A stretch of 64,000 bases of DNA from Nitrosomonadales bacterium. GTDB taxonomy: Bacteria > Pseudomonadota > Gammaproteobacteria > Burkholderiales > Gallionellaceae. The translations under genes and the position numbers were made by a program. Where the stretch lies: the NCBI GenBank assembly GCA_016177795.1, contig JACOUM010000003.1:124001-188000 (forward strand). The letters run 5' to 3'. This document shows positions 53,068-64,000 of the stretch, one piece after another (the stretch's first letter is position 1; each line of letters opens with the position of its first letter). The notes below the pieces were generated by a model. That model had not been told where the DNA came from. It did not search any database and saw nothing but the letters and a program-made list of their open reading frames with translations.

Positions 53068-54147
53068 TCAAACTAATCCGCTCACCGTCCAGGATAGTAG
53101 CGCAGCCAACGGGAGTGTAGCCAACCAGGACAGCATAATTTGGCGCAATGCCGTCCAATCCAATGTCTGTGCACGCATACCGACCCCGGCAATGGAGCCG
53201 ACCGAGACATGTGTTGTGGAAACTGGCACCCCCAGTTTGCTGGCGAACAGTACCAGGATCGCAGTAATCAAATTGGCAGCCAGTCCTTGACTATGATCCA
53301 TGCGCGTCACGCGATGGCTCATACGTTCCGCAACTTTCTTTGCAAAACCGATTCCGCCAAATGTCATTGCGACGGACAGCAACAAAATGGAGGTTTGTGC
53401 CTCAATCAGCCTGGATGCGATAAGCAGGGCTGCCATTTTCGGCGTGTCGTTCACTCCGCGTGCAAAACAGATCGCCATTGCGGACAGGATGTGCAGCTTG
53501 TCCAGCCAGTTGGTAATCGAGAAACGTGAAATGACCGGCAACGAGTCACAATCCTTTTCACGTCCCAATACAAGCCAGGGTGCCAATGCGTTTTGCAGTG
53601 CAGCACCGCCGGTTGCGGTTGCAGCAGACATTTCCGGCTGGATTGCGCACACACAATCCTCCTCTATCGGGCGTAAACGAAACGCTGAATATGCCAATGC
53701 GCCCAGAATAGCTGCCAGCAATGGGCTGGCCAGCAACGGCAGCAAAAAGGTTTGCATCAATCTGCCGGGATGTACGCCGCTCTCGGCTTGCGCCAGGCCT
53801 GCGCCGATCAGCCCCCCGATCAGCGCGTGAGTGGTGGAAACCGGATAGCCCAAGCGCGTTGCGAGGAAAATGGTAATCGCCGCGCCGCATGATACGCTCA
53901 GAATAAACAGGGGCGTATTGACTACAGCATCTGCAACCAACCCCTTGCCGGAAAAGTTCTGTACCAGCGTTTCGGCAAGAAACAGGGCAGCGAAACAACC
54001 AGCCACCGTAGCCAATGTTGCCAACGTGAGTGCCTGGCGGTAATTCAGCGTATCCGACCCCCAGATGGTCGCGAACCCCTTGAAGTTGTCGTTTGCTCCA
54101 TTACTGAAGGCAAGAAACAGTGCAGCAATAACTATTAGCCATTCCAT
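53068..54147 (-). CDS. pit: Inorganic phosphate transporter, PiT family
   Basis: A 359-residue membrane protein with the two inverted PiT signatures: FSNGANDNFKGFATIWGS near the N-terminus with GYPVSTTHALIGG, and ARGVNDTPKMAALL with GVPVSTTHVSVGSIAG in the second half. PiT carriers move metal-phosphate with protons; some homologues carry sulfate. GGGAGAAAG lies ahead of the ATG. It is close to the ArsM cluster; PiT carriers also admit arsenate, so a link to arsenic is conceivable but not shown. Confidence 0.9.
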   Translation of the reverse strand: MEWLIVIAALFLAFSNGANDNFKGFATIWGSDTLNYRQALTLATLATVAGCFAALFLAETLVQNFSGKGLVADAVVNTPLFILSVSCGAAITIFLATRLGYPVSTTHALIGGLIGAGLAQAESGVHPGRLMQTFLLPLLASPLLAAILGALAYSAFRLRPIEEDCVCAIQPEMSAATATGGAALQNALAPWLVLGREKDCDSLPVISRFSITNWLDKLHILSAMAICFARGVNDTPKMAALLIASRLIEAQTSILLLSVAMTFGGIGFAKKVAERMSHRVTRMDHSQGLAANLITAILVLFASKLGVPVSTTHVSVGSIAGVGMRAQTLDWTALRQIMLSWLATLPLAALLSWTVSGLV

Positions 54148-54166
54148 GATCTTTCTCCCTGCGCGG

Positions 54167-54301
54167 TTATTTGATTGCGGTGAACTTGACGCTCACCATT
54201 TTGCCTTGCACGGCGTTCAAGTCGTCTGCTTCCGGGGCAGGTGTGTACTCCTTGCCGGGGCTGCATGCCATCCCGTCGAGTTCGGGGGCGGAGAGTAGAT
54301 G
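54167..54301 (-). pseudogene. 3' remnant of an arsM homologue
   Basis: The 44 codons before the stop translate to HLLSAPELDGMACSPGKEYTPAPEADD and on to VSVKFTAIK, matching the C-terminus of the intact ArsM at 56197 nearly residue for residue. One difference is CSPG here for CCPG there. Homology stops at 54301 where the PAS-like scrap begins. It is the scar of a duplicated arsM whose 5' part has been lost. Confidence 0.88.
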
Positions 54302-54377
54302 TCGCGGTTGTACTCGACGATGGCCCCGTCATGATCGATCGCGATGATGCAGTCGAGCGAAGAACAGCATCGCATTG
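54298..54377 (-). pseudogene. PAS-domain fragment
   Basis: About 26 codons in one frame on the minus strand include LDCIIAIDHDGAIVEYNRDI, the typical first strands of a PAS domain (D-x-I-I-A-I-D-x-D-G-x-I-x-E-x-N). There is no start or continuation. It is probably a remnant of a sensor gene joined to the arsM scar by deletion. Confidence 0.55.
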
Positions 54378-54532: not shown

Positions 54533-55408
54533 TCACGATTGTGGTTGAGCCGCCTGCCCGATTCCTGCGGCATCCAGGCTGTCCCCGATGACTACCAGCC
54601 TGCCGGCTGTGACGTCCTTGTCGAAGCGTGCTGAATCGACATTTCCGAAGGCGCTGTCAAAGCGATAGGGACCGTTCGTTGTGCTGACCAGTGCCTTTGC
54701 CCGCGCTACACGCCCGAACTTCCCGCATGACAGATCGGCAAACAGCTTCTGTACGGAAGCAAATTCCATCTGGTCCGCAAGCCTGAAGGAAAATGTCTCA
54801 AACTTGAGATGGCAGTTGCCAGAAACAATCTGGCGCCGCAGCGGCGCGTCCGGCAAAGGCATGTCGATTTCGGCATTGACAGTGCGGAACAGGATGGCGC
54901 GTGGATTGATGGTGCCGATCAGGCGTTCAGCGGCGTCAATCGCAGATACCTCAGCGAGGTCGATCTTGTTCACCAGGATAACATCGGAATTTACGATCTG
55001 GTCCTCGAAGAAGGTTCCGTACATTTCTGATTCGTAGAGCTCCGCGAACTCCGTGGCGTCGACGATGCCGATGACCGATGCGGAGCCGGTGCCGGCACTT
55101 TCTATTGCCTCCAGCACGCCCGACGGCGAGGCCACTCCACTCGGCTCAATCAACAGGTGCTCGGGCGAGAACTGTTCCACGATACCCTGGATGGTCGTGA
55201 CAAGGTCAAGCTTGAGGGTGCAGCAGATGCAACCGCTCGGCAGCTCCACCGATTCGATGCCGCCCGCAGAGAAGATTTCGCCGTCGATGCCTGCCTTGGC
55301 GAAGTCATTGACGAGTACCACGGCCTTCTCCGTATTGCCAGCCACGAAGTTCCTGATGAACGTCGTCTTCCCTGAACCCAGCAATCCGCACACTACCGTC
55401 GTTTTCAT
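54533..55408 (-). CDS. CobW/COG0523-family GTPase (metal or cofactor chaperone)
   Basis: A 291-residue G3E GTPase with Walker A GLLGSGKTT (residues 8-16), the metal-binding CxCC motif in LPSGCICCTLK, and the guanine-specificity motif NKID. COG0523 proteins deliver metals or help corrinoid enzymes; members are found beside corrinoid methyltransferase genes. The C-terminal domain is short compared with CobW (about 350 residues). Last intact gene of the methyltransferase cluster, 60 bases after a DUF1638 gene. Confidence 0.85.
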   Translation of the reverse strand: MKTTVVCGLLGSGKTTFIRNFVAGNTEKAVVLVNDFAKAGIDGEIFSAGGIESVELPSGCICCTLKLDLVTTIQGIVEQFSPEHLLIEPSGVASPSGVLEAIESAGTGSASVIGIVDATEFAELYESEMYGTFFEDQIVNSDVILVNKIDLAEVSAIDAAERLIGTINPRAILFRTVNAEIDMPLPDAPLRRQIVSGNCHLKFETFSFRLADQMEFASVQKLFADLSCGKFGRVARAKALVSTTNGPYRFDSAFGNVDSARFDKDVTAGRLVVIGDSLDAAGIGQAAQPQS

Positions 55409-55468
55409 AATAATCCTAAGCCGTACCAGCCTCTATCAAAGTCTGATCGTCCATCGTACGTATGGTCA

Positions 55469-56110
55469 TTACTCCGTTGCCCGAGCTGCTGATGCCTGGG
55501 CGGCGATCTGCCGGGCTTTTTCAAGATGCTCTTCCAGCACTGCGGAAGTTCCCGTCGTCTTCTCCAGCGTCAGCGAGAAGATGTCGCAAACCTCATTTGC
55601 CTTGCCGATATAGTAGTCGTCGTTTCCCACCCCGGTATCGATGTAAAGCCCGGTCCGAAAGGCGGACATAAGTCTTTTGGCCATTTCTATCGGGTCTTTG
55701 CCGTATTTCACCACCCGGTCCAGATGGTTTCCCTTGATGACCATATCGACGCCGAGCTCCGCCCATCCTGGGCTCATGAACCACGTCCCGATTTCTTTGC
55801 GGACTGCCTCGCCATGCTTTTCAGGCGTCATGAATATCTGGATGCAGTCTTCCATCTGCGGCATCACCACCGGTATGTCGATCTCGTTTTCTATCCCTTT
55901 CAGCGACTGGCAATAGCCGTAGCCGAGGAAGATCACGTCAACTTTATCCTTGATGGCCTTCACGTTTTCCAGGACGATCTCTTTCATCTTTTTCGGACTG
56001 CTGTGGAGCGCCGCCTCAAGATAAATGATCTCGGTGATGCCGGGAGTTTTACTCAACAGCTTGTCCAGCTCAAGCTTCATGATGTCGCAGGCAATAACAC
56101 CGATTCTCAA
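55469..56110 (-). CDS. DUF1638 family protein, paralogue A
   Basis: A 213-residue soluble protein of DUF1638: IGVIACDIMKLELDKLL, VDVIFLGYGYCQSLKGIE, MPQMEDCIQIF and NDDYYIGKANEVCDIF. Three cysteines (in ACD, GYC and EDC) are conserved with paralogue B and could bind a metal. DUF1638 genes are typically found with corrinoid methyltransferase genes in anaerobes and methanogens; the function is unknown. TTG start with GGAGGT seven bases ahead. Its upstream sequence is homologous to that of paralogue B, showing duplication of the gene with its leader. Confidence 0.85.
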   Translation of the reverse strand: MRIGVIACDIMKLELDKLLSKTPGITEIIYLEAALHSSPKKMKEIVLENVKAIKDKVDVIFLGYGYCQSLKGIENEIDIPVVMPQMEDCIQIFMTPEKHGEAVRKEIGTWFMSPGWAELGVDMVIKGNHLDRVVKYGKDPIEMAKRLMSAFRTGLYIDTGVGNDDYYIGKANEVCDIFSLTLEKTTGTSAVLEEHLEKARQIAAQASAARATE

Positions 56111-56196
56111 AGCCGATACCTCCAGGATTGCAGGGGATGCCGCCTATATTTGGACGACATTTTTCATTTGCTACACAGGGGCAATCTATCGAGTGG

Positions 56197-57027
56197 TCAT
56201 TTGATTGCGGTAAATTTGACGCTCACTACTTTGCCCTGTACCTGGTTCAAGTCGTCTGCTGCCGGGGCTGGTGTGTATTCCTTGCCTGGGCAGCACGCCA
56301 TACCGTCGAGTTCCGGATCGGAGAGCAGATGGCGTGCGACAACTTTAATTTCGGTAAAGCCCGCTTCCTTCAGCGTATCCCAGTAATCTGCCTCCGGTAT
56401 CGCGCCGCCGGTGCAACCCGCCCAGCCCGATTGCAGCCGCTCGCGCAACTCTGCGTCTATCGGCCCGGTCAACAGGATGTCGGAGATGGCGAGCCGCCCG
56501 CCCGGTTTGAGAATGCGAAACGCCTCTCGAAAAACCGCGTCCTTGTCGGGGCACAGATTGATGACGCAATTGGATATCACCACGTCGGCACTGGCGTCCG
56601 GCAACGTCGTATCCTCCAATGGTGCATGACGAAACTCGACGCTGCGATCCGCCAGGCCGGCCTGCGCTACCGCCTGTTTCGCCTGTTCAATCATCTGCGG
56701 CGCGAAATCGACCCCGTATACTTTGCCGCCCGCACCCACCTTGCGCGCCGCCAGGATCACATCGATGCCGCCTCCACAACCGATGTCGACGACCACCTTA
56801 CCCGGCTGCAAATTCGCAAAGCCGGTCGGATTGCCGCAACCGCGCGAAAGATTCCGCGCAATTTCCGGCACCGAGGAGAGCTCTGATCTGCTATAGATAG
56901 CCTGCTCATGCGCGCAGCAAGCCTGGATGGCCGGTTTGCTGCAACAGGAATCTGCGGCGTTTCCGGCTGTTTCCGCGAATTTGCCATAGCGTTCCTGCAC
57001 AACTTGACGGACTTCATCGGGTTTCAC
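56197..57027 (-). CDS. arsM: ArsM-family SAM-dependent methyltransferase
   Basis: A 276-residue class I methyltransferase. SAM-binding motif I is VDIGCGGGIDVILAARKVG; ISNCVINLCPDKDAVFREAFRILKPGGRLAISD (residues about 150-182, blocks) and GWAGCTGGAI are characteristic of prokaryotic ArsM, including cysteines in SNC and AGC that bind As(III). It also has double-cysteine motifs in the N-terminal (DSCCSK, QACC) and C-terminal (MACCPG) regions. ArsM converts As(III) to methylated arsenicals. GTG start with GGGAGGAG ahead. It lies between two DUF1638 genes inside a corrinoid-type cluster, and not in the ars operon, so a substrate other than simple arsenite is possible. Confidence 0.85.
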   Translation of the reverse strand: MKPDEVRQVVQERYGKFAETAGNAADSCCSKPAIQACCAHEQAIYSRSELSSVPEIARNLSRGCGNPTGFANLQPGKVVVDIGCGGGIDVILAARKVGAGGKVYGVDFAPQMIEQAKQAVAQAGLADRSVEFRHAPLEDTTLPDASADVVISNCVINLCPDKDAVFREAFRILKPGGRLAISDILLTGPIDAELRERLQSGWAGCTGGAIPEADYWDTLKEAGFTEIKVVARHLLSDPELDGMACCPGKEYTPAPAADDLNQVQGKVVSVKFTAIK

Positions 57028-57051
57028 GACTTCTCCTCCCTTTTGAGGTTG

Positions 57052-57693
57052 TTACGCCTTTGTCTGTGCCGTTGCTGCCTTTGCGGCGACCTTTTGGGCT
57101 ATTTCAAGATGCTCTTCCAGCACTGCGGAAGTTCCTGTCGTCTTTTCCAGCGCCAGCGAGAACACGTCGCAGAACTCGTTCGACTTGCCGATATAATAGT
57201 CGTCATTCCCGACCCCGGTATCGATGAAGAGCCCACGCCGGTAATGGGTAAAAAGTCTCCTGGCCATCTCCATCGGATCTTTGCCGTACTTCACCACCCG
57301 GTCCAGATGGTTTTCCTTGATGACCATTTCGGCCCCGATCTCCGCCCAGCCGGGACTCATGAACCAGGTACCAACTTCCTTGCGTATCGCCTCGCCATAT
57401 TTTTGCGGCGTCATGAATATCTGGATGCAGTCATCCATCTGCGGCATCACCACCGGTATGTCGATTTCGTCCTCGATCCCTTCCAGTGCATTGCAAAAAC
57501 CGTAGCCGAGGAAGATCACGTCCACCTTATCCTTGATGGCATTCACATTTTCCAGGATGGTCTGTTTCATCTTTTTCGGATAGCAGTGGAGCGCCGCCTC
57601 GAGATAGATGATCTCGGTAATACCGGGGATTTTGCTTAATAGCTTGTCCAGTTCAAGCTTCATGATGTCGCATGCAACAACGCCGATTCTCAT
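57052..57693 (-). CDS. DUF1638 family protein, paralogue B
   Basis: A 213-residue protein, identical to paralogue A at most positions (MRIGVVACDIMKLELDKLL, VDVIFLGYGFCNALEGIE, MPQMDDCIQIF). The same three cysteines are present. The ATG at 57693 has GGAGGT seven bases ahead; an ATG five codons upstream contains that site and is rejected. It precedes arsM by 25 bases and follows the hydantoinase-family gene by about 100 bases. Confidence 0.87.
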   Translation of the reverse strand: MRIGVVACDIMKLELDKLLSKIPGITEIIYLEAALHCYPKKMKQTILENVNAIKDKVDVIFLGYGFCNALEGIEDEIDIPVVMPQMDDCIQIFMTPQKYGEAIRKEVGTWFMSPGWAEIGAEMVIKENHLDRVVKYGKDPMEMARRLFTHYRRGLFIDTGVGNDDYYIGKSNEFCDVFSLALEKTTGTSAVLEEHLEIAQKVAAKAATAQTKA

Positions 57694-57796
57694 GGTCGGG
57701 ACCTCCATGGTTGAAGGGTATGCGGCCCATTCTCAAGCGACCCGTTCAATTTTCCAGACGAAACCATTTTCAAAATATGCTCCTCAAATGAGTGCT

Positions 57797-59749
57797 TCAT
57801 ACATACGGCTGACCGATGGACATTGCGGTCATCTTGAGTTCCAGAAAAATGGTTTTTCCCCAGCCGCTGGCGAGGGGGGCGGATTTTTCTTCGGTGTGCA
57901 CGGTGGTTTCCAGATTTTTCCCGCCGGTTTCCGCTGCTTGGCGCTCTGCCGTTGTGCGCGCAAGTTGCTCGGCATAAATGATTGCCGGTTCCACATCGTC
58001 GAAAACCTTGTGTTCGCCGGCGGCCACCACGGCAAAACCGACGGGGCGTAGCGGCCTCACGAAGACCTGCGCCATCGCGGTCACCCGTCCGGTAACCGCG
58101 CCGGTGGCATTGGCGACTTCCGCATGTTCGGGCACCACCAGTTGCGCGCCCAGATCGCTTGCCACTCTTGGGAAATAGGCCTTGACCGGCGCGCCGACCG
58201 CCACCAGTGGCCGGTTCAGTTTGAAGCTGGCCGCGATGCCCCCGTTGCAGCCCAGCCGCAGAAGGCTGTCGATGAGTTCGCGGCTCTCGCGCGCGGGCAG
58301 CGCGATCCCCTCTTCCTCCAGCGATTTCGCGGCGATATTGAATTTCAGTTTTTCGATTATCTTGTCAAGCAACAGCGCGATCAGCTGTTCCCGGTCCAAC
58401 CCGGTCTTGTTTGCGTAAAACTTCATCGCCTCCTCGCACGCGGCGCGATCCCACAGATCGAGCGTTCCTTTAACATGCAGCAGATCAGTCGGGGTAAATG
58501 AGACCTCGGCCACAAAACCGAGTTTCACGAACTGGTCCAGGTTTACCGATGGTCCGGATATCATCTCGATGTCGGCGCGGTGCAGCACTTTGCCAGCCAG
58601 CGCCTCCAGCATCAGCCGCTCATATTTTCCGACCGCAAACGTAGGCATCTTCACCAGCATGAAGAAATCCAGATCCAGGCCCTTCAGCGCCGGTCCCTGC
58701 GTGGCCGCCAGCGATTTCAAGGCATCATTCAGCGCCGGACATTGGCTGGACGCCAGCGACAGCGGTACCACCCGGCGCGGACCGATATGAATTTCATCCG
58801 CCGATTTCACCAGTATCCTGCTGTCGCCGCCGAGACCGGCGGTCCACATGTCAATCGAGCGCACGCGCGTCCGCCATCCGCCGACCACTGCGCCGTTCTC
58901 GCTGGCGGCCGGAATCGCGCCGCTGATAACGCCGATGTCGCTGGTGGTTCCGCCCATGTCAACCACTACCGCGTCGCTCAGGCCGGTCAACCAGCAGGCG
59001 CCGATTACGCTGGCCGCGGGGCCGGACAGCACGGTTTCGACCGGCCGACTGCGCGCCGATTTTTCGCTGATGAGCGATCCGTCGCCGCGCACCACCATCA
59101 GGGGAGCGTGAATGTTGTTTTCCGCCATGATGTGCATTACCGCGTCCAGCAGCTCGCCAATGACGGGGAGCAGGCTTGCGTTGAGCGCCGCCGTGACGGC
59201 GCGCTCCACCATGCCGACGCCGCTGGAAAGTTCGTGCCCGCAGACCACCGGGTGCGCGCATTCAGCCGCGATCAATTCCTTCAGTTGCAACTCGTGTGCG
59301 GCGTTGTAGATGCTGAAATACCCCGACACCGCGAACGCGTCCACCCGGTCTTTCATGCGCCTGACGGCCTTGCGGGCGGCGTCGCTATCAAGTGGTGCAG
59401 TTTCGCTTCCGCCGAGGTCATGCGCGCCGCGAATGACGGCAACCTCTTCCGCCGGGACGTTCGCGGGAAGCTTGAAACTGTTTTCGTCCGGCACGGCGAT
59501 GATCAGGCCGACCCTGGAGCCCTTCCCTTCAACGACGCTGTTGGTGGCGAGTGTGGTGGAGAGCGACACCAGTTTGACTTCGGGGAACAGGCTGTTGTCC
59601 AGCGCAGCGAGGGAATTTTTTATGCCGATGCGCAGATCCTGCTTGGTGGTCAATGCCTTCGCCTTGGAAACCAGGCGGCGTTCGCTGAAATCAACAATGA
59701 CGCTGTCGGTGAACGTGCCGCCGGTATCGATGCCAATCCCGTACTTCAT
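57797..59749 (-). CDS. Hydantoinase/oxoprolinase family ASKHA protein
   Basis: A 650-residue protein starting GIGIDTGGTFTDSVIVD, the phosphate-1 loop of HyuA-type ASKHA proteins, with VVDMGGTTSDIGVI as phosphate-2. Unlike metabolic HyuA it has no HyuB partner gene here. Homologues sit in corrinoid methyltransferase operons of anaerobes, where they may help in corrinoid activation or act on methylated substrates; that role is inferred from context. Its ATG overlaps the stop of the ferredoxin-ASKHA gene by 4 bases (ATGA). Confidence 0.83.
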   Translation of the reverse strand: MKYGIGIDTGGTFTDSVIVDFSERRLVSKAKALTTKQDLRIGIKNSLAALDNSLFPEVKLVSLSTTLATNSVVEGKGSRVGLIIAVPDENSFKLPANVPAEEVAVIRGAHDLGGSETAPLDSDAARKAVRRMKDRVDAFAVSGYFSIYNAAHELQLKELIAAECAHPVVCGHELSSGVGMVERAVTAALNASLLPVIGELLDAVMHIMAENNIHAPLMVVRGDGSLISEKSARSRPVETVLSGPAASVIGACWLTGLSDAVVVDMGGTTSDIGVISGAIPAASENGAVVGGWRTRVRSIDMWTAGLGGDSRILVKSADEIHIGPRRVVPLSLASSQCPALNDALKSLAATQGPALKGLDLDFFMLVKMPTFAVGKYERLMLEALAGKVLHRADIEMISGPSVNLDQFVKLGFVAEVSFTPTDLLHVKGTLDLWDRAACEEAMKFYANKTGLDREQLIALLLDKIIEKLKFNIAAKSLEEEGIALPARESRELIDSLLRLGCNGGIAASFKLNRPLVAVGAPVKAYFPRVASDLGAQLVVPEHAEVANATGAVTGRVTAMAQVFVRPLRPVGFAVVAAGEHKVFDDVEPAIIYAEQLARTTAERQAAETGGKNLETTVHTEEKSAPLASGWGKTIFLELKMTAMSIGQPYV

Positions 59750-61581
59750 GCCGGACCGGCGTCAGGGAATGACAGGCATTTGGTGAACAGCTTGTCGTAA
59801 TCGGGAAAGCACGACAGTTCGGTGTAGTCTATTTTTCGCGCCAGGCGCGCCGCTTCTTCGCGTTGCTCCTTCGACAGCAGGCACAGGATGGCGCCGGACT
59901 TGGACGAGTTGCCGATCAGGGTGACGCGGTCGAGCAGTTCTGTCGGTATCACCCCCATGCGGGCGAAACTTTCCATGCGCACATGGAAACCGAACGCACC
60001 GGCGATGTAGACGCGGTCGATGTCCTGCAGGCCGATGCCGAGCTTGCTTAACAGCACCAGTATGCCTGAAAGGATAGCGCCCTTGGCGAGCTGCACCTGG
60101 CGGATGTCCTTCTGCGTTATGGCAATCGGCCCAAAGCCCTTCTTGCCGGCGCTGAGCACGAAACTGGCCGGTCCCTCGCCGCTCTGCAACCTATGTGCCC
60201 ACGGCGGCGCATCCCCCGGCTGCAACTTCACGAAGCGCCCGGATGGCTGGACGATACCGGCCTTTACCAGTTCCCCCACGGCGTCGATGATGCCGCTGCC
60301 GCACAGTCCCACTGCCGCCTTGCCGCCGATGGTCTGGACTTCTACGTCGTCGTTTATGAAAACTTTTTCAATCGCGCCATTGGCCGCACGCATGCCGCAG
60401 CTGATATTCATTCCCTCCAGCGCCGGGCCGGCGGCGCACGAACAGGCGCATAGCTTTTCCTTCGAACTGAAAGCGATTTCACCATTGGTGCCGATATCGA
60501 TGAAAAGCGCCCGCTCGTCCTTGCCGGCCAATTCCGCGCTGAGAATGCCCGCCACGATGTCCGCCCCGATATACGCGGAAACGGACGGCAGGCAGTAGAC
60601 CGTGCCGAACGGCGATATGGTGATCCCCAATTCCCGTGCCGTGACATTCACCCCGCAGGTGAAGGAGGGGACATAAGGGGATTTCCCGATGCCCGACGGG
60701 TCGACGCCGAGCAGGAAATGCATCATGGTGGAATTCGCCGCCACCGCTATTTCGTAAATATTGCGCCGCTCCACCTCCGCATCCTGGCACGCCTCGCCGA
60801 TGAGGGTGTCGATGCACTCCCGGATCATGCGGCTCAGTTCATCCAGTCCCTGCGAATGTTCACGCACATGCTGGATGCGGCTCAGCACGTCGAGGCCGTG
60901 GTTCTTCTGCGGGTTGATCATGGTGCACGCGGCCAGCTCTTCGCCGCTGACCAGATTCACCAGCGAGACCACCACCGTGGTGGTGCCGATATCGACTGCC
61001 GCGCCGTAGCAAAGAGAAGCGGTATCGCCGGGTTCGATGCCGATGAGGTCTGCTCCCGCCGACACCAGGGTTGCCTTGAACCCGCTGCTGCGCAACACGC
61101 CGGGAATCTGTTGCAGCAGGGAGAGCGGCAGCTTTTCGGAAAGGCCGAGTCCGAGTGCCTGCTCCAGCCTCGAAACATCGTCCAGATTGTCTTCCAGCTT
61201 CGGCTTTTCGAGTTCGATGTATTTCTTGCCGATGTTCGGATTCAGGCAGAATTCCGGCATGCGCCCTTCGGACAGGATGCGGTGTTTTTTTCCGGCCATG
61301 CCCAGCACCTGGTAATCGGCCACGCCGGTGACTTTCGAGCGGCAGGCCAGCCTCACCCCCTGGGCAAGGTTTTCTGCGCTGATATGTTTGATCTCGTCTT
61401 CGTGCGGCTCATCCGCCCCGCCATCCACGAGTTGAACCAGGCATTTGCCGCAGGTGCCCTTGCCGCTGCACGACGACTCGATATCGATAAAGGCGTCGCG
61501 CGCCACCTGCATCAGGCAGTCGCCCATGGCGGCATCCACCACCTTGTTCTGCGGCAGAAATTTGATTTCCACTTTTCCCAT
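59746..61581 (-). CDS. Ferredoxin-ASKHA corrinoid activation protein (RACo-like, DUF4445)
   Basis: A 611-residue protein. The N-terminal plant-type [2Fe-2S] domain has ligands in SSCSGKGTCGKC and a fourth in RLACRS. A linker follows, then a large ASKHA ATPase domain with AVDIGTTTVVVSLVNL, NPQKNHGLDVLSRI, FIDIGTNGEIAF and GLCGSGIID. This is the layout of RACo and relatives, which reduce inactive Co(II) corrinoid back to Co(I) using ATP. It supports the view that the operon handles a corrinoid-dependent methyl transfer. Stop/start overlaps with both neighbours (TAATG and ATGA). Confidence 0.9.
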   Translation of the reverse strand: MGKVEIKFLPQNKVVDAAMGDCLMQVARDAFIDIESSCSGKGTCGKCLVQLVDGGADEPHEDEIKHISAENLAQGVRLACRSKVTGVADYQVLGMAGKKHRILSEGRMPEFCLNPNIGKKYIELEKPKLEDNLDDVSRLEQALGLGLSEKLPLSLLQQIPGVLRSSGFKATLVSAGADLIGIEPGDTASLCYGAAVDIGTTTVVVSLVNLVSGEELAACTMINPQKNHGLDVLSRIQHVREHSQGLDELSRMIRECIDTLIGEACQDAEVERRNIYEIAVAANSTMMHFLLGVDPSGIGKSPYVPSFTCGVNVTARELGITISPFGTVYCLPSVSAYIGADIVAGILSAELAGKDERALFIDIGTNGEIAFSSKEKLCACSCAAGPALEGMNISCGMRAANGAIEKVFINDDVEVQTIGGKAAVGLCGSGIIDAVGELVKAGIVQPSGRFVKLQPGDAPPWAHRLQSGEGPASFVLSAGKKGFGPIAITQKDIRQVQLAKGAILSGILVLLSKLGIGLQDIDRVYIAGAFGFHVRMESFARMGVIPTELLDRVTLIGNSSKSGAILCLLSKEQREEAARLARKIDYTELSCFPDYDKLFTKCLSFPDAGPA

Positions 61582-62633
61582 TACCCTGCCTTTGTATCCT
61601 GCCTGGTGTTAACGGTTGAACCGCCTTCAAGGATGGCTCTGGCAAGACCCCTGATATTTACCAAGGGTGTTCTCGGGCTGATGCCGCAGGCCGGTGAAAG
61701 TATCCCTACCCCGCCCCTCAAGCACCGCTCGCCGTGTTTCGTGATGTCATCCGGCTCGCCCTTTTCCAGCAGATAAGTGCTTACGTTACCCATGGACACT
61801 TTAGCGGGAGCGAGTTCCTTGAGCGTCTTGATGCTGACCATGGCATCCACGCTGATGGATTCGGCGGCAATTTCGGACAACAGATTGCCGAGACAGCGCA
61901 CGTCGCCGCAAATATGGACGATGGACGGGATGCCGTGTTTTTCCCGAAAATGCGTGACCAGGCGGTTGATGTATGGAATCGCAAACTCGGCAAAGGATTT
62001 TTTTCCCAATATCTCGCCCGATGCCGACGGATCGGCGATGCAGATCACATCGGCACCCGCCTCGACCAGCGCGTCGCCAAAGCGGATGAGGTTCTCGTTG
62101 ACGAACTCCATCAGCTTGTGTGAGTTTTCCCTGTCAGTAATCAACCCCTTGTAATAGACCATCGGCTCGATCAGGGATGAGGCCAGACTCACCGGGCCGG
62201 TGAGGTTTGCGATGACTGGTGTCTGCGGCGCCTCTTTTTTCAATATCCGTATCGCGTCGATGCAGACTCTGGCGCGCCCCTTGCCGGGATCGATGTTCTG
62301 CAGGCGCTCGATCTGGTCGAGGCGCTCGATGGCATATTCCGTGACACGCGGCTCGTTTCCCAGCGCGCCGAGGTCAACCTGCGCGCCCATCGCCTCGGCT
62401 TCCACGGTCATGCAGAAAGGCACGCCGGTATTTTCGATGCCGCCAACCCGGTTCGCAGCCAGTGTGAGGCGGGCCATCTTTTCGGGATCCGAGTGCGCCT
62501 CCGGCCACCAGCTTTCGGCGGCGTCCATGAGTTCGGTCACCGCCATGTTCATCATCCCGCCGGGGCAGATGAAGGGAGGCCGGTCGGCGGCATCACCGCG
62601 CAACGCATTCAGCAGCCTGGTTTTTTCATTCAT
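61581..62633 (-). CDS. UroD-family corrinoid methyltransferase (MtaA/CmuA-like) 1
   Basis: A 350-residue protein of the uroporphyrinogen decarboxylase family. It opens LLNALRGDAADRPPFICPGGMM, and has the zinc site of MtaA/MtbA/CmuA-type methyltransferases: VHICGD (His-x-Cys) and a later Cys in SPACGISPRTP. Such enzymes move a methyl group between a corrinoid protein and a thiol or other acceptor. CAGGAG lies ahead of the ATG; the stop overlaps the next gene by one base. Confidence 0.86.
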   Translation of the reverse strand: MNEKTRLLNALRGDAADRPPFICPGGMMNMAVTELMDAAESWWPEAHSDPEKMARLTLAANRVGGIENTGVPFCMTVEAEAMGAQVDLGALGNEPRVTEYAIERLDQIERLQNIDPGKGRARVCIDAIRILKKEAPQTPVIANLTGPVSLASSLIEPMVYYKGLITDRENSHKLMEFVNENLIRFGDALVEAGADVICIADPSASGEILGKKSFAEFAIPYINRLVTHFREKHGIPSIVHICGDVRCLGNLLSEIAAESISVDAMVSIKTLKELAPAKVSMGNVSTYLLEKGEPDDITKHGERCLRGGVGILSPACGISPRTPLVNIRGLARAILEGGSTVNTRQDTKAG

Positions 62634-62659
62634 GTCAGCCGCTCCTGTTCATCGCAACA

Positions 62660-63244
62660 TCACGATGATGTATGCGCGCTTTCCTTGTTGGTGATGCTGA
62701 AGGCCATTTGAAGGGCGACCGCACAGGCAACATAGAACAGTGCCACCGAGACATAGGAGCCATAGTATTGGGCCACGCGCGCCGCGTATTCCATTGCCGT
62801 CATGTCGTTAAAACGCCCGGAGAATACATAAAAGCTGGCGTTGGAAAACAGGAAAGCAAAACTGCTGGCTGCCCATGCCGTCAGAGCCAACCCGGCCAGT
62901 CCCTTGCCTTCCATGCTGTGTCGAGTCGCAAACCAGTGGCCGGCGAACCACAGGCTAGCATAGGTCGGAATGAGGAACCAGTAGGCCGGCGTCATGCACC
63001 AGTCGCTGATGCCCTGCACCGAGGTTGCGTAGTAATCCACCAGACCCGCTTCCAGCAGCAGCGCAATGAATACAGCCACGGATGCGCGCGCAAACTTGGC
63101 CAGATACAGGCCGCATAAAAAGAATACCGCGTAAGAAGCATCGGGCAGGGAAACTGCCGATCCGAAATGGTTATAACGGGTTGCTGCCATGGCCAGAATC
63201 AAGCCGGCAACCACCATCCCTATACGACTTTGAAATTGTTTCAC
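62660..63244 (-). CDS. Six-helix membrane protein, possible corrinoid transporter
   Basis: A 194-residue integral membrane protein with about five to six hydrophobic segments. The sequence AATRYNHFGSAVSLPDASYAVFF and DWCMTPAYWFLIPTYASLWFAG recalls small proteins I have seen annotated as cobalamin transporters (S-component-like) in betaproteobacteria; I cannot confirm this. A GTG start at 63244 has AAGGAGG five bases ahead; the longer open frame upstream crosses the intergenic gap and is excluded. Its place between two methyltransferase genes of corrinoid type fits cobamide uptake. Confidence 0.6.
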   Translation of the reverse strand: MKQFQSRIGMVVAGLILAMAATRYNHFGSAVSLPDASYAVFFLCGLYLAKFARASVAVFIALLLEAGLVDYYATSVQGISDWCMTPAYWFLIPTYASLWFAGHWFATRHSMEGKGLAGLALTAWAASSFAFLFSNASFYVFSGRFNDMTAMEYAARVAQYYGSYVSVALFYVACAVALQMAFSITNKESAHTSS

Positions 63245-63287
63245 TTGAACCTCCTTGGAATTGTTGATTGTTTGTCGGCAGGGGCTT

Positions 63288-64000
63288 CTAACTGTCATAC
63301 CTGCCATATTTGCGTGCCGCGTTGATGAGGGCATCGATGTTTTCCGGCGGAGTGTTGATCGGCACTTCGCACCCGCTACCCAGAATGAATCCAACCTTGT
63401 CGCCCATTTTTTCGCAGATCTCGCGCGCCTCGGCGTCTATCTCTTCGGGTGTATTCTTCAACAGGTTGGCCGGAATGACGTTGCCAACCAGAGCCACGCG
63501 GTGCCCGGCCACCTTCTTCGCTTCACCCAGATCACACGCATCGAGACTCCAGATGTCGAAGTCTGCTTCCAGCATCGCCTTGAAATTTGGCGTGGTCTTG
63601 CCGCAGATGTGCAATACGGCGGGCATGCCGCCGCCGGTCTTGTGAACATGGTCGGCGAGCCGCTTGAGATAAGGCGCGACAAACTCCTTGAAATGACGCG
63701 GACTCACCAGACTGCCGGAGCCGATGGGTTCCACGATGATCGGCAGTGCACCCCGTTTCAGGATTTCATCGATGAACTTTATGCCGGCCTGCGTACATAT
63801 CTCCAGCAGTTCATGCACCCAGGCAGGGTTCTTGATCATATCCCGCGTCAGAAGCTCCACCGGATACAGTGCCGCCGCCGTGGTCAAAGGCCCGCCGAAA
63901 ACAGTGCTGACCACCACTTCGCTGCCCACTTCCTTCACGCATATCTCGGTCGCCTCCATGTAAACGGGGAGACGGCCATCCTTGCTGAAATCGGGCAGTT
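63288..64000 (-). CDS. UroD-family corrinoid methyltransferase (MtaA/CmuA-like) 2, N-terminus beyond the window
   Basis: The C-terminal 237 residues are visible; the frame runs off the right edge. It has the zinc motif LHICGK (His-x-Cys) and a later Cys in GSGCEVPINTPPENIDALI, the standard C-terminal end of MtaA/CmuA-type proteins. FGGPLTTAAALYPVELL and IVEPIGSGSLVSP are further family segments. It is a distant paralogue of the gene at 61581. Upstream genes of the same operon, perhaps including the corrinoid protein, should lie beyond 64000. Confidence 0.87.
   Translation of the reverse strand, partial: LPDFSKDGRLPVYMEATEICVKEVGSEVVVSTVFGGPLTTAAALYPVELLTRDMIKNPAWVHELLEICTQAGIKFIDEILKRGALPIIVEPIGSGSLVSPRHFKEFVAPYLKRLADHVHKTGGGMPAVLHICGKTTPNFKAMLEADFDIWSLDACDLGEAKKVAGHRVALVGNVIPANLLKNTPEEIDAEAREICEKMGDKVGFILGSGCEVPINTPPENIDALINAARKYGRYDS

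Follow-up and report, generated by a model that had tools for sequence, protein, structure and literature searches.

We analyzed a 64,000-nucleotide stretch of contig JACOUM010000003.1 from a Nitrosomonadales bacterium (hereafter the window, whose coordinates are used throughout), at the right-hand end of which lies a minus-strand operon of ten genes for predicted cobamide-dependent methyl transfer. The host genome, G000, is a metagenome-assembled genome (MAG) from the genus that also includes 'Nitrosomonadales' nzgw562, with an assembly of 1.65 Mb in 12 contigs that is 74% complete. From its 5' end, the operon encodes CorP, MtA1, BtuM, MtaA2, RACo, HyuA, DUF1638a, ArsM, DUF1638b and CobW. It runs on past window position 64000, with the remainder of MtA1 to 64346 and then CorP, and this region was taken from the host contig (C8:176500-196400, locus L003). 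A previous sequence-only reading of the window had listed a UroD pair, RACo, HyuA, a DUF1638 pair, ArsM and CobW in one minus-strand run, and each of these genes was confirmed, whereas the BtuM gene between the two UroD genes had been overlooked. The same reading had classified the run as a corrinoid methyl-transfer operon and suggested that a B12-binding protein be sought past position 64000. Such a protein, CorP, whose absence would have counted as a refutation, was found 359 bases beyond the window edge and heads the operon.

The core genes had been described as overlapping by 1-4 bases, which is correct for MtaA2/RACo (1 base) and RACo/HyuA (4 bases), but the remaining seven gaps are 12-103 bases long. 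A clear ribosome-binding sequence was judged by eye to precede seven of the ten genes. The ratio of nonsynonymous to synonymous substitutions (dN/dS) ranged from 0.05 to 0.23, with no stops, in the 24 of 25 orthologue pairs with finite dS; HyuA compared with locus L040 was saturated in dS. Thus, the genes are under purifying selection and are not chance open frames. No cobalamin riboswitch was identified on the operon, since Rfam gave no match in the window or ahead of CorP in L003.

CorP (window equivalent 64359-65018, outside the window) contains the PF02310 and PF02607 domains and is of the MtbC/MtaC type, with hits to the MtbC, MtgC and pyl_corrinoid models that are all below their cut-offs. 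The two methyltransferases belong to the UroD family (MtaA/CmuA-type for MtA1). MtA1 (63288-64346, of which 63288..63998 is inside the window) matched URO-D at 261.7 bits and TIGR01463 at 168 bits (cut-off 235). MtaA2 (61581..62633) exceeded the cut-offs of both the MtaA/CmuA and the methylcobalamin:coenzyme M (CoM) methyltransferase models (PRK06252, 392/244; TIGR01463, 238.5/235.4), from which MtA1 is more distant, and aligned to MtaA (4AY7) over residues 4-333 of 350 with E=4e-56. The His-x-Cys...Cys motif that had been noticed in both UroD proteins falls in the same alignment columns as the His-Cys-Cys triad of 4AY7, and these zinc-site residues are kept in all seven MtA1 and MtaA2 orthologue rows examined. 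Judging from the sequences, MtA1 is likely to be the methyl-donor enzyme and MtaA2 the methyl-acceptor (thiol) enzyme, nearest to the methylcobamide:CoM methyltransferases.

The His-Cys-Cys triad has been taken as a mark of sulfur and selenium methyltransferases, whereas one or both cysteines are replaced in the O-methyltransferases of the UroD family (PMC10418091; statements from this and the other papers cited refer to the parts of the text that were available). An early guess at a thiol or other soft-atom substrate is consistent with these zinc sites. The triad alone is not decisive for the substrate, however, because CmuA of pCMU01, which acts on chloromethane, also has His, Cys and Cys in the triad columns. 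The operon could accordingly serve O-demethylation or dehalogenation, with methoxyaromatics or chloromethane feeding one-carbon metabolism, and MtvB, OdmB, CdmB and CmuA are all members of the UroD superfamily (PMC13222342). We consider such a role highly improbable, given the cysteine replacements in the O-methyltransferases, the low identity to CmuA (24% for MtA1 and 18% for MtaA2) and the restriction of the match between MtA1 and CdmB to residues 205-350. Neither a pterin-binding methyltransferase nor an MttB/MtgB-family Pfam match was detected when 18 genes of the operon and the region upstream of it were scanned.

The BtuM-type cobalamin transporter (62660..63244, GTG start) matched PDB entry 8c7p ('Cobalamin ABC transporter') with E=1e-28. 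The segment SDWCMTPAYW aligned with SDFCVSPAYW, so that the cysteine of SDxCxxPAYW is kept; we take 8c7p to be BtuM. An orthologue of 75% identity is located between the same two genes in locus L034, the only one of the cassette loci described below in which a match was obtained.

The genes downstream of MtaA2 include a likely reactivation set for the corrinoid cofactor. RACo (59746..61581), a RACo/RamA-type [2Fe-2S]-ASKHA corrinoid reductive activase, contains the RACo_C_ter, Raco_middle, RACo_linker and Fer2 domains and matched PDB 3zyy with E=7e-106. DUF1638a (57052..57693; PF07796, 119.7 bits) and DUF1638b (55469..56110; PF07796, 110.5 bits) are paralogues with 79-83% identity. Three cysteines and one histidine are invariant in all 18 correctly framed rows of the family alignment, which comprised 20 rows before two in wrong reading frames (L017 and L023) were left out. 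DUF1638 was identified in 29 of 369 sampled genomes of the class, G000 included. The class sample minus G000 provided 28 loci (L005-L032), the 29th match having no locus; frames were derived for 18 of them and 15 were used, leaving out L013, L016 and L020 as partial. A CorP homologue is present within about 3.5 kb in 23 of these 28 loci.

In Phaeobacter inhibens, mutant fitness data show that DUF1638 and a RamA-like protein are needed for a split methionine synthase, although the text available of that study makes no specific proposal for the role of DUF1638 (PMC5764234). In Ruegeria, both proteins reach a higher abundance on N-osmolytes (PMC12478193). The same combination of a RamA-like protein and DUF1638 is found beside a corrinoid protein in the operon, and by analogy DUF1638a is probably a corrinoid-reactivation partner. 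No link of DUF1638 to metalloids emerged from the analysis; the published role is that of a cobalamin-reactivation partner of RamA-like proteins (PMC5764234). A function of DUF1638 as a metalloid protein was rejected, as literature and gene neighbourhoods both tie it to corrinoid reactivation. The structural model of DUF1638 (predicted local distance difference test, pLDDT, 79) had no PDB match at E<=0.001, and the template-modelling score (query) was at most 0.36 among the 50 matches listed. A search of viral contigs for DUF1638 yielded nothing of use, and the plasmids searched had no match to the cassette subtype.

HyuA (57797..59749) is an ASKHA protein with the Hydant_A_N and Hydantoinase_A domains, and is 63-90% identical among the six cassette loci that cover this stretch. 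No HyuB was present among the 18 genes scanned; the rest of the genome was not searched. The AlphaFold model of HyuA was unusable, with a mean pLDDT of 38. In a collection of 72,556 plasmid records, 21 matched HyuA at E<=1e-60 and 10 matched a class-relative DUF1638 at E<=1e-5, and the six top-ranked HyuA records are six of the ten DUF1638 records. In Azoarcus KH32C, HyuA and DUF1638 are about 15 kb apart in one glycine-betaine region with betA/betB, a corrinoid protein, folate enzymes and an ASKHA activase. From these co-occurrences, the HyuA-type protein seems likely to be a further partner of DUF1638 and an accessory of corrinoid systems. The word 'Hydantoinase' is absent from the main texts of three papers on corrinoid/DUF1638 systems.

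Two plasmid clusters were observed in addition. Both begin with a corrinoid protein and UroD genes, after which come an ASKHA gene and one for a sensor diguanylate cyclase on a Thiodictyon plasmid (L070:7326-12317), and two ATP-binding proteins on an Azoarcus plasmid (L071:7378-12527). These are perhaps methyl-compound sensors built of corrinoid parts.

The last gene of the operon encodes a CobW/COG0523-type GTPase (54533..55408; PF02492, 130.4 bits), a putative metal chaperone, which adjoins DUF1638b in all three Nitrosomonadales/Gallionella genomes. A CobW gene is also present in a corrinoid cluster of Acetoanaerobium.

The core of the operon, here called the cassette, is not confined to G000. 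A scan of genome contigs with both DUF1638 copies gave eight loci, in Nitrosomonadales nzgw562 (two loci), Gallionella nzgw563, two Nitrospinales, bacterium WY2.bin26, an Acidobacterium and, remotely (24%), a Lentisphaerae bacterium; seven of the eight, from six genomes, belong to the close type. CorP, MtA1, MtaA2, RACo and HyuA are kept in order in L034, L036 and L038, where MtA1 is 84-87% identical. Across the cassette loci, identities are 91-94% for CorP, 63-90% for HyuA and 67-96% for DUF1638a. DUF1638 is on the opposite strand, beside HyuA, in L036, L037 and L038, and three loci (L035, L037 and L040) are cut by contig ends. Thus, all or part of the core is found again in Nitrosomonadales, Gallionella, a Nitrospinales order and an Acidobacterium, with protein identities of 63-96%. 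Within these groups its occurrence is patchy: 2 of 25 genomes of the window's genus, 3 of 11 in the Nitrospinales-type order and 1 of 15 in the Acidobacterial order. Among 300 genomes sampled from the window's own order, only G000 had the cassette, the second match being only 26% identical. This distribution looks like horizontal transfer, apparently between phyla.

A CbpB-type peptide-modifying radical SAM enzyme was observed beside the cassette in nzgw562 (L034:12879-14258 (-), with L034:14500-14688 (-)) and in nzgw563 (L035:9406-10944 (-)). The enzyme scored 726 bits against TIGR04163 (cut-off 375) in L034, where it was scanned, and the L035 protein shares 93% identity with it. Upstream of this gene in nzgw562 is a cobalamin riboswitch (RF00174, 80.8 bits). 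The window and the stretches taken from G000 contained no match.

ArsM (56197..57027) is, by its score and four cysteines, a predicted member of the S-adenosylmethionine (SAM)-dependent arsenite methyltransferase family. It exceeded the cut-off of NF008823 by a small margin (267/263 bits), and Cys 28/29, 64, 154 and 205 are conserved in an alignment with PDB 5evj and 4kw7 and six other ArsM proteins. These four positions are presumably the arsenic-binding ones. Six further cysteines are found in all three cassette ArsM proteins and in none of four other ArsM proteins aligned. The NCBIfam model 'corrinoid protein-associated methyltransferase CpaM' also matches ArsM, at 65.5 bits with a cut-off of 180, which might suggest that it uses SAM to prime or reactivate the corrinoid protein, as in MetH reactivation, instead of being an arsenic enzyme. 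That role is highly improbable in our judgement: the four cysteine positions are kept, the score is over the arsenite methyltransferase cut-off, and RACo already supplies ATP-driven reactivation. Moreover, ArsM of Gallionella nzgw563 (L035) is followed by arsenosugar genes, namely TIGR04169 (163.7/120 bits) and ArsS (400.8/300).

ArsM is adjacent to DUF1638a in all three Nitrosomonadales/Gallionella genomes, with gaps of 24 bases in the window, 194 in L034 and 23 in L035. At E<=1e-40, ArsM was detected in 2 of 37 genomes of the genus, the two known to carry the cassette. In the 25 genus genomes tested for both, two had both and 23 had neither (Fisher 0.0033). A concern raised at the outset, that arsM might be a chance neighbour in this one genome, is therefore dispelled by the DUF1638-ArsM join in three genomes and the absence of ArsM from the 23 cassette-free genus members. 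As to the union of ArsM with the corrinoid system that the sequence-only reading had proposed, it stands for Nitrosomonadales and Gallionella, but the core lacks an adjacent arsM elsewhere, namely in three Nitrospinales-order genomes and in the short stretch covered of one Acidobacterium cassette. Because the Nitrospinales cassettes have no adjacent arsM, the core needs no ArsM, which appears to be an accessory of the Nitrosomonadales/Gallionella lineages. A general partnership of ArsM with the cassette was rejected: in the Nitrospinales and Acidobacterial orders, ArsM (E<=1e-20) occurs in 16 of 22 genomes that lack the cassette as well as in all four that have it, and in the loci covered the two are not adjacent.

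Downstream of the operon, on the same strand, the 3' remnant of a second arsM (about 54163-54316; tblastn, 84% over 49 aa) lies just before a Pit/PHO4-type transporter (53068..54147; PF01384, 219.5 bits). The remnant DNA is 86-90% identical to the 3' ends of the L034 and L035 ArsM genes, as compared to 84% to the window arsM, and in L034 ArsM is directly followed by PitA. This suggests that the DUF1638b-CobW pair replaced a segment, or was inserted, between arsM and the transporter, whose role as a neighbour of the operon is uncertain. A separate pair exists in G701, where a distant ArsM (36%) precedes a Pit-type transporter (43%) at L062:7712-9878 (-), so the ArsM-Pit pair is not bound to the cassette, from which it stands away. 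The distant ArsM loci of other cassette genomes had no cassette genes alongside, except for a weak UroD match in L061. On contig C4 of G000 (L108:5621-10475 (-)), four genes, judged by eye to be of membrane protein and glycosyltransferase type, stand between a radical SAM gene for ArsS and a distant ArsM-like gene, the whole perhaps forming an arsenosugar-type cluster. ArsS is over its cut-off also in G480 and G682, two members of the genus without the cassette.

ArsM and its Pit-type neighbour could be an insertion that is functionally unrelated to the corrinoid operon. Because the arrangement lies on the same chromosomal flank, next to lon, in the window and in L034, the two represent one event, not two independent ones. 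Copies of arsM have been duplicated and truncated there, and both the Nitrospinales-order cassettes without ArsM and the independent pair in G701 would agree with such an event. We nevertheless regard a purely accidental neighbourhood as rather unlikely, since Gallionella L035 keeps the DUF1638-ArsM join with other genes downstream, ArsM follows the cassette within the genus, and the dN/dS of the ArsM orthologues is 0.14-0.17. On these sequence data, ArsM is taken to be a real, selected addition in the Nitrosomonadales/Gallionella lineages.

A closer link to arsenic would be a corrinoid-dependent demethylation of methylarsenicals or arsonium compounds, in which MtA1 moves a methyl group from trivalent dimethylarsenicals (DMAs(III)) or monomethylarsenicals (MMAs) to CorP, with ArsM acting in the same arsenic cycle. 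Demethylation of dimethylarsenate is published for methylotrophic methanogens, in which a corrinoid route, with no gene proven in the text available, has been proposed by the authors (PMC6776024, PMC10579292). The position of ArsM beside DUF1638a and the arsenosugar genes after ArsM in Gallionella agree with this proposal. On the other hand, the Nitrospinales-order cassettes have no adjacent arsM, ArsM is common without the cassette in the two orders mentioned above, and an ArsM that makes what the cassette removes would constitute a futile cycle unless regulated. Overall, this reading is unlikely. A more elaborate form, in which methylarsenicals are demethylated to yield methionine and ArsM uses the resulting SAM, thereby combining methyl and arsenic cycling in one regulated unit, appears equally doubtful. 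If true, methylarsenical demethylation would provide a bacterial example, at the level of genes, of organoarsenic metabolism that depends on corrinoids. The operon offers a testable gene candidate for the corrinoid-type demethylation of methylarsenic, for which the genes were left open in the available text of the two studies (PMC6776024, PMC10579292).

A possible outlet for the methyl group is suggested by the genes upstream of CorP, where, on the same strand and past a porin gene, a protein consisting of the MetE catalytic domain only (core-MetE), a TusA-OsmC fusion, DsrE and a small TusA are encoded, listed by increasing distance from CorP. The core-MetE of G000 (C8:190976-192157) has 394 aa, is over the cut-off for PF01717 but not for the N-terminal model (20.5 bits, cut-off 27), and displays the zinc ligands H-x-C, E and C. 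Relatives with 58-78% identity are present in four of the six other cassette genomes (G699, G700, G701 and G703). In total, core-MetE was identified in 5 of 7 cassette genomes as compared to 0 of 20 tested cassette-free genomes (p=0.00026, relatedness ignored), and in 0 of 4 further genomes whose cassette status was not tested. All five genes stand behind DsrE and TusA-OsmC. Enzymes of this kind take the methyl group from methylcobalamin and probably also from corrinoid proteins (PMC7857596).

The block of DsrE, TusA/OsmC fusion and core-MetE (L003:14474-17195; L115, L116, L117 and L118) is common to G000, Gallionella, the Nitrospinales order and Acidobacterium; it tracks the cassette across genomes but is near it only in G000. 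A further TusA-type match precedes the block in four genomes and is located behind it in Acidobacterium. Elsewhere in the host genome beyond the window, Rfam matched the Xanthomonas sRNA sX9 (RF02228, 53.2 bits, gathering 44) at L003:19411-19487 (+).

Selenium salvage by demethylation of methylselenides, as proposed for most type 1 mlp clusters, would involve the same core enzyme kinds, and with methylcobalamin as the donor ClMlp2 methylates selenide (PMC10418091). Use of selenium is within the capacity of the lineage, as selD was found in all five other genus members tested (three cassette-free by test and two untested for the cassette). Among the seven cassette genomes, however, selD was over the cut-off in only two (G698 and G703), with none over the cut-off in G000 (74% complete), G699, G700, G701 and G702, and it was found in none of four cassette-free genomes of the Nitrospinales-type order. 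None of the proteins encoded in the operon exceeded the threshold of a selenoprotein model. We therefore consider selenium salvage to be very unlikely for this operon, and rejected it as a general role, as selD tracks lineage more than cassette.

The gene content, domains, zinc-ligand residues, conservation, co-occurrence and purifying selection described above are best explained, in our tentative view, by a cobamide-dependent operon for the salvage of methyl groups from soft-heteroatom compounds, probably to homocysteine, to which ArsM has been added locally. The most economical mechanism is X-CH3 -> CorP -> homocysteine; the substrate, the direction of transfer, the acceptor, the role of HyuA and the link between ArsM and the corrinoid system are inferences. 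MtA1 would take a methyl group from a methylated soft-heteroatom compound (a thioether, thiol, selenide or possibly a methylarsenical) at its His-Cys-Cys zinc site and transfer it to Co(I) of the corrinoid in CorP. From there the methyl group would go, by way of MtaA2 and/or the co-occurring core methionine synthase, to a thiol, most likely to homocysteine to yield methionine. RACo, together with DUF1638 and probably the HyuA-type ATPase, would reduce inactivated Co(II) to Co(I), a reactivation expected to matter most in cells that meet oxygen; the lineages hosting the cassette are presumably not strict anaerobes. BtuM would import cobalamin, and CobW may serve metal loading. ArsM, added downstream in Nitrosomonadales and Gallionella, would spend SAM on arsenic methylation, and may be fed by the methyl pool or feed it.

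Several observations weigh against methyl salvage to homocysteine. Core-MetE is missing from two cassette genomes (G698 and G702), and in the Acidobacterial copy (G703) two stops interrupt the match, the open frame being 221 aa long, which leaves an intact copy in four of seven genomes. Core-MetE is near the corrinoid operon in G000 only, and this genome also has a MetH-length protein (1249-aa frame), so methionine need not be the outlet. The core-MetE families that, in the text available, are reported to have corrinoid donors all come from strict anaerobes (PMC7857596). The partnership of HyuA with DUF1638 is incomplete on plasmids, where 15 of the 21 HyuA records have no DUF1638 and 4 of the 10 DUF1638 records have no HyuA. 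The substrate of the operon is putative, and the hosts are mostly MAGs, several of them incomplete, among which related genomes are not independent samples.

The individual parts of the operon have known relatives, but their combination was not found in the literature searched, nor was an operon that combines corrinoid/UroD methyltransferases with arsenic methylation (arsM). Similarity to the HyuAB hydantoinase/oxoprolinase is limited to HyuA, as no HyuB partner is encoded among the 18 genes scanned. Compared to the selenocysteine-assisted organometallic (SAO) system, the scores against selenoprotein models that may belong to it were below the cut-off for CobW (68.6/180 bits) and OsmC (38.8/95 bits), and no SaoL match was obtained among the proteins scanned. 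The arsenosugar-type modules of ArsM, TIGR04169 and ArsS are matched by the Gallionella nzgw563 cassette, in which ArsM precedes the same two genes, whereas the window operon has ArsM only.

The split MetH and the glycine betaine MtgBCD system of roseobacters have the corrinoid protein, a RamA-like protein and DUF1638 in common with the operon, but use MttB/MtgB-type and pterin-binding methyltransferases in place of two UroD-type zinc enzymes (PMC5764234, PMC12478193). The glycine-betaine region of Azoarcus KH32C shares the HyuA homologue. The companion protein upstream resembles the folate-independent core methionine synthases MesA-MesD in that it is likewise a MetE catalytic domain alone. 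MesA-C are found in strict anaerobes (PMC7857596), whereas core-MetE occurs in Nitrosomonadales/Gallionella, the Nitrospinales order and, in broken form, Acidobacterium, behind DsrE/TusA-OsmC.

A cluster of Acetoanaerobium noterae (L072, a 2.6 Mb record filed as a plasmid) contains CobW, four UroD-type genes, a CorP with 64% and a RACo with 42% identity, but no match to DUF1638 or HyuA at 1e-5. MtaA2 is 44-45% identical to its homologue in this cluster. In a small tree bearing on orthology to Mlp2 and Mlp3, with no reference Mlp among its sequences, MtaA2 grouped with Acetoanaerobium U3 (0.954; 0.996 with U1 added) and MtA1 with U4 (0.683).

The type 1 mlp gene clusters (methyl-sulfur/selenium) are similar to the operon in that they combine several UroD enzymes of the MtaA/MtbA/MtsA kind, carrying His-Cys-Cys, with a single corrinoid protein and a single Ram/RACE activase, contain no folate methyltransferase and show a patchy, transfer-like spread (PMC10418091). 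Two features of these clusters, a corrinoid protein with a Ram/RACE activase and the His-Cys-Cys zinc site of the Mlps (7/7 rows), are present in the operon. Words beginning with DUF, CobW, hydantoinase or arsen are absent from the main text of that paper. The type 1 mlp clusters are reported there, as far as the available text goes, only from obligate anaerobes (PMC10418091), whereas the operon adds DUF1638, HyuA, BtuM and ArsM. If our interpretation is correct, a HyuA-type ATPase would be tied to DUF1638 and a core methionine synthase linked to a methyltransferase corrinoid protein. The presence of a cassette with RACo, DUF1638, HyuA and a cobalamin importer in bacteria that we assume not to be strict anaerobes suggests how the corrinoid chemistry of such clusters may survive where oxygen is met.

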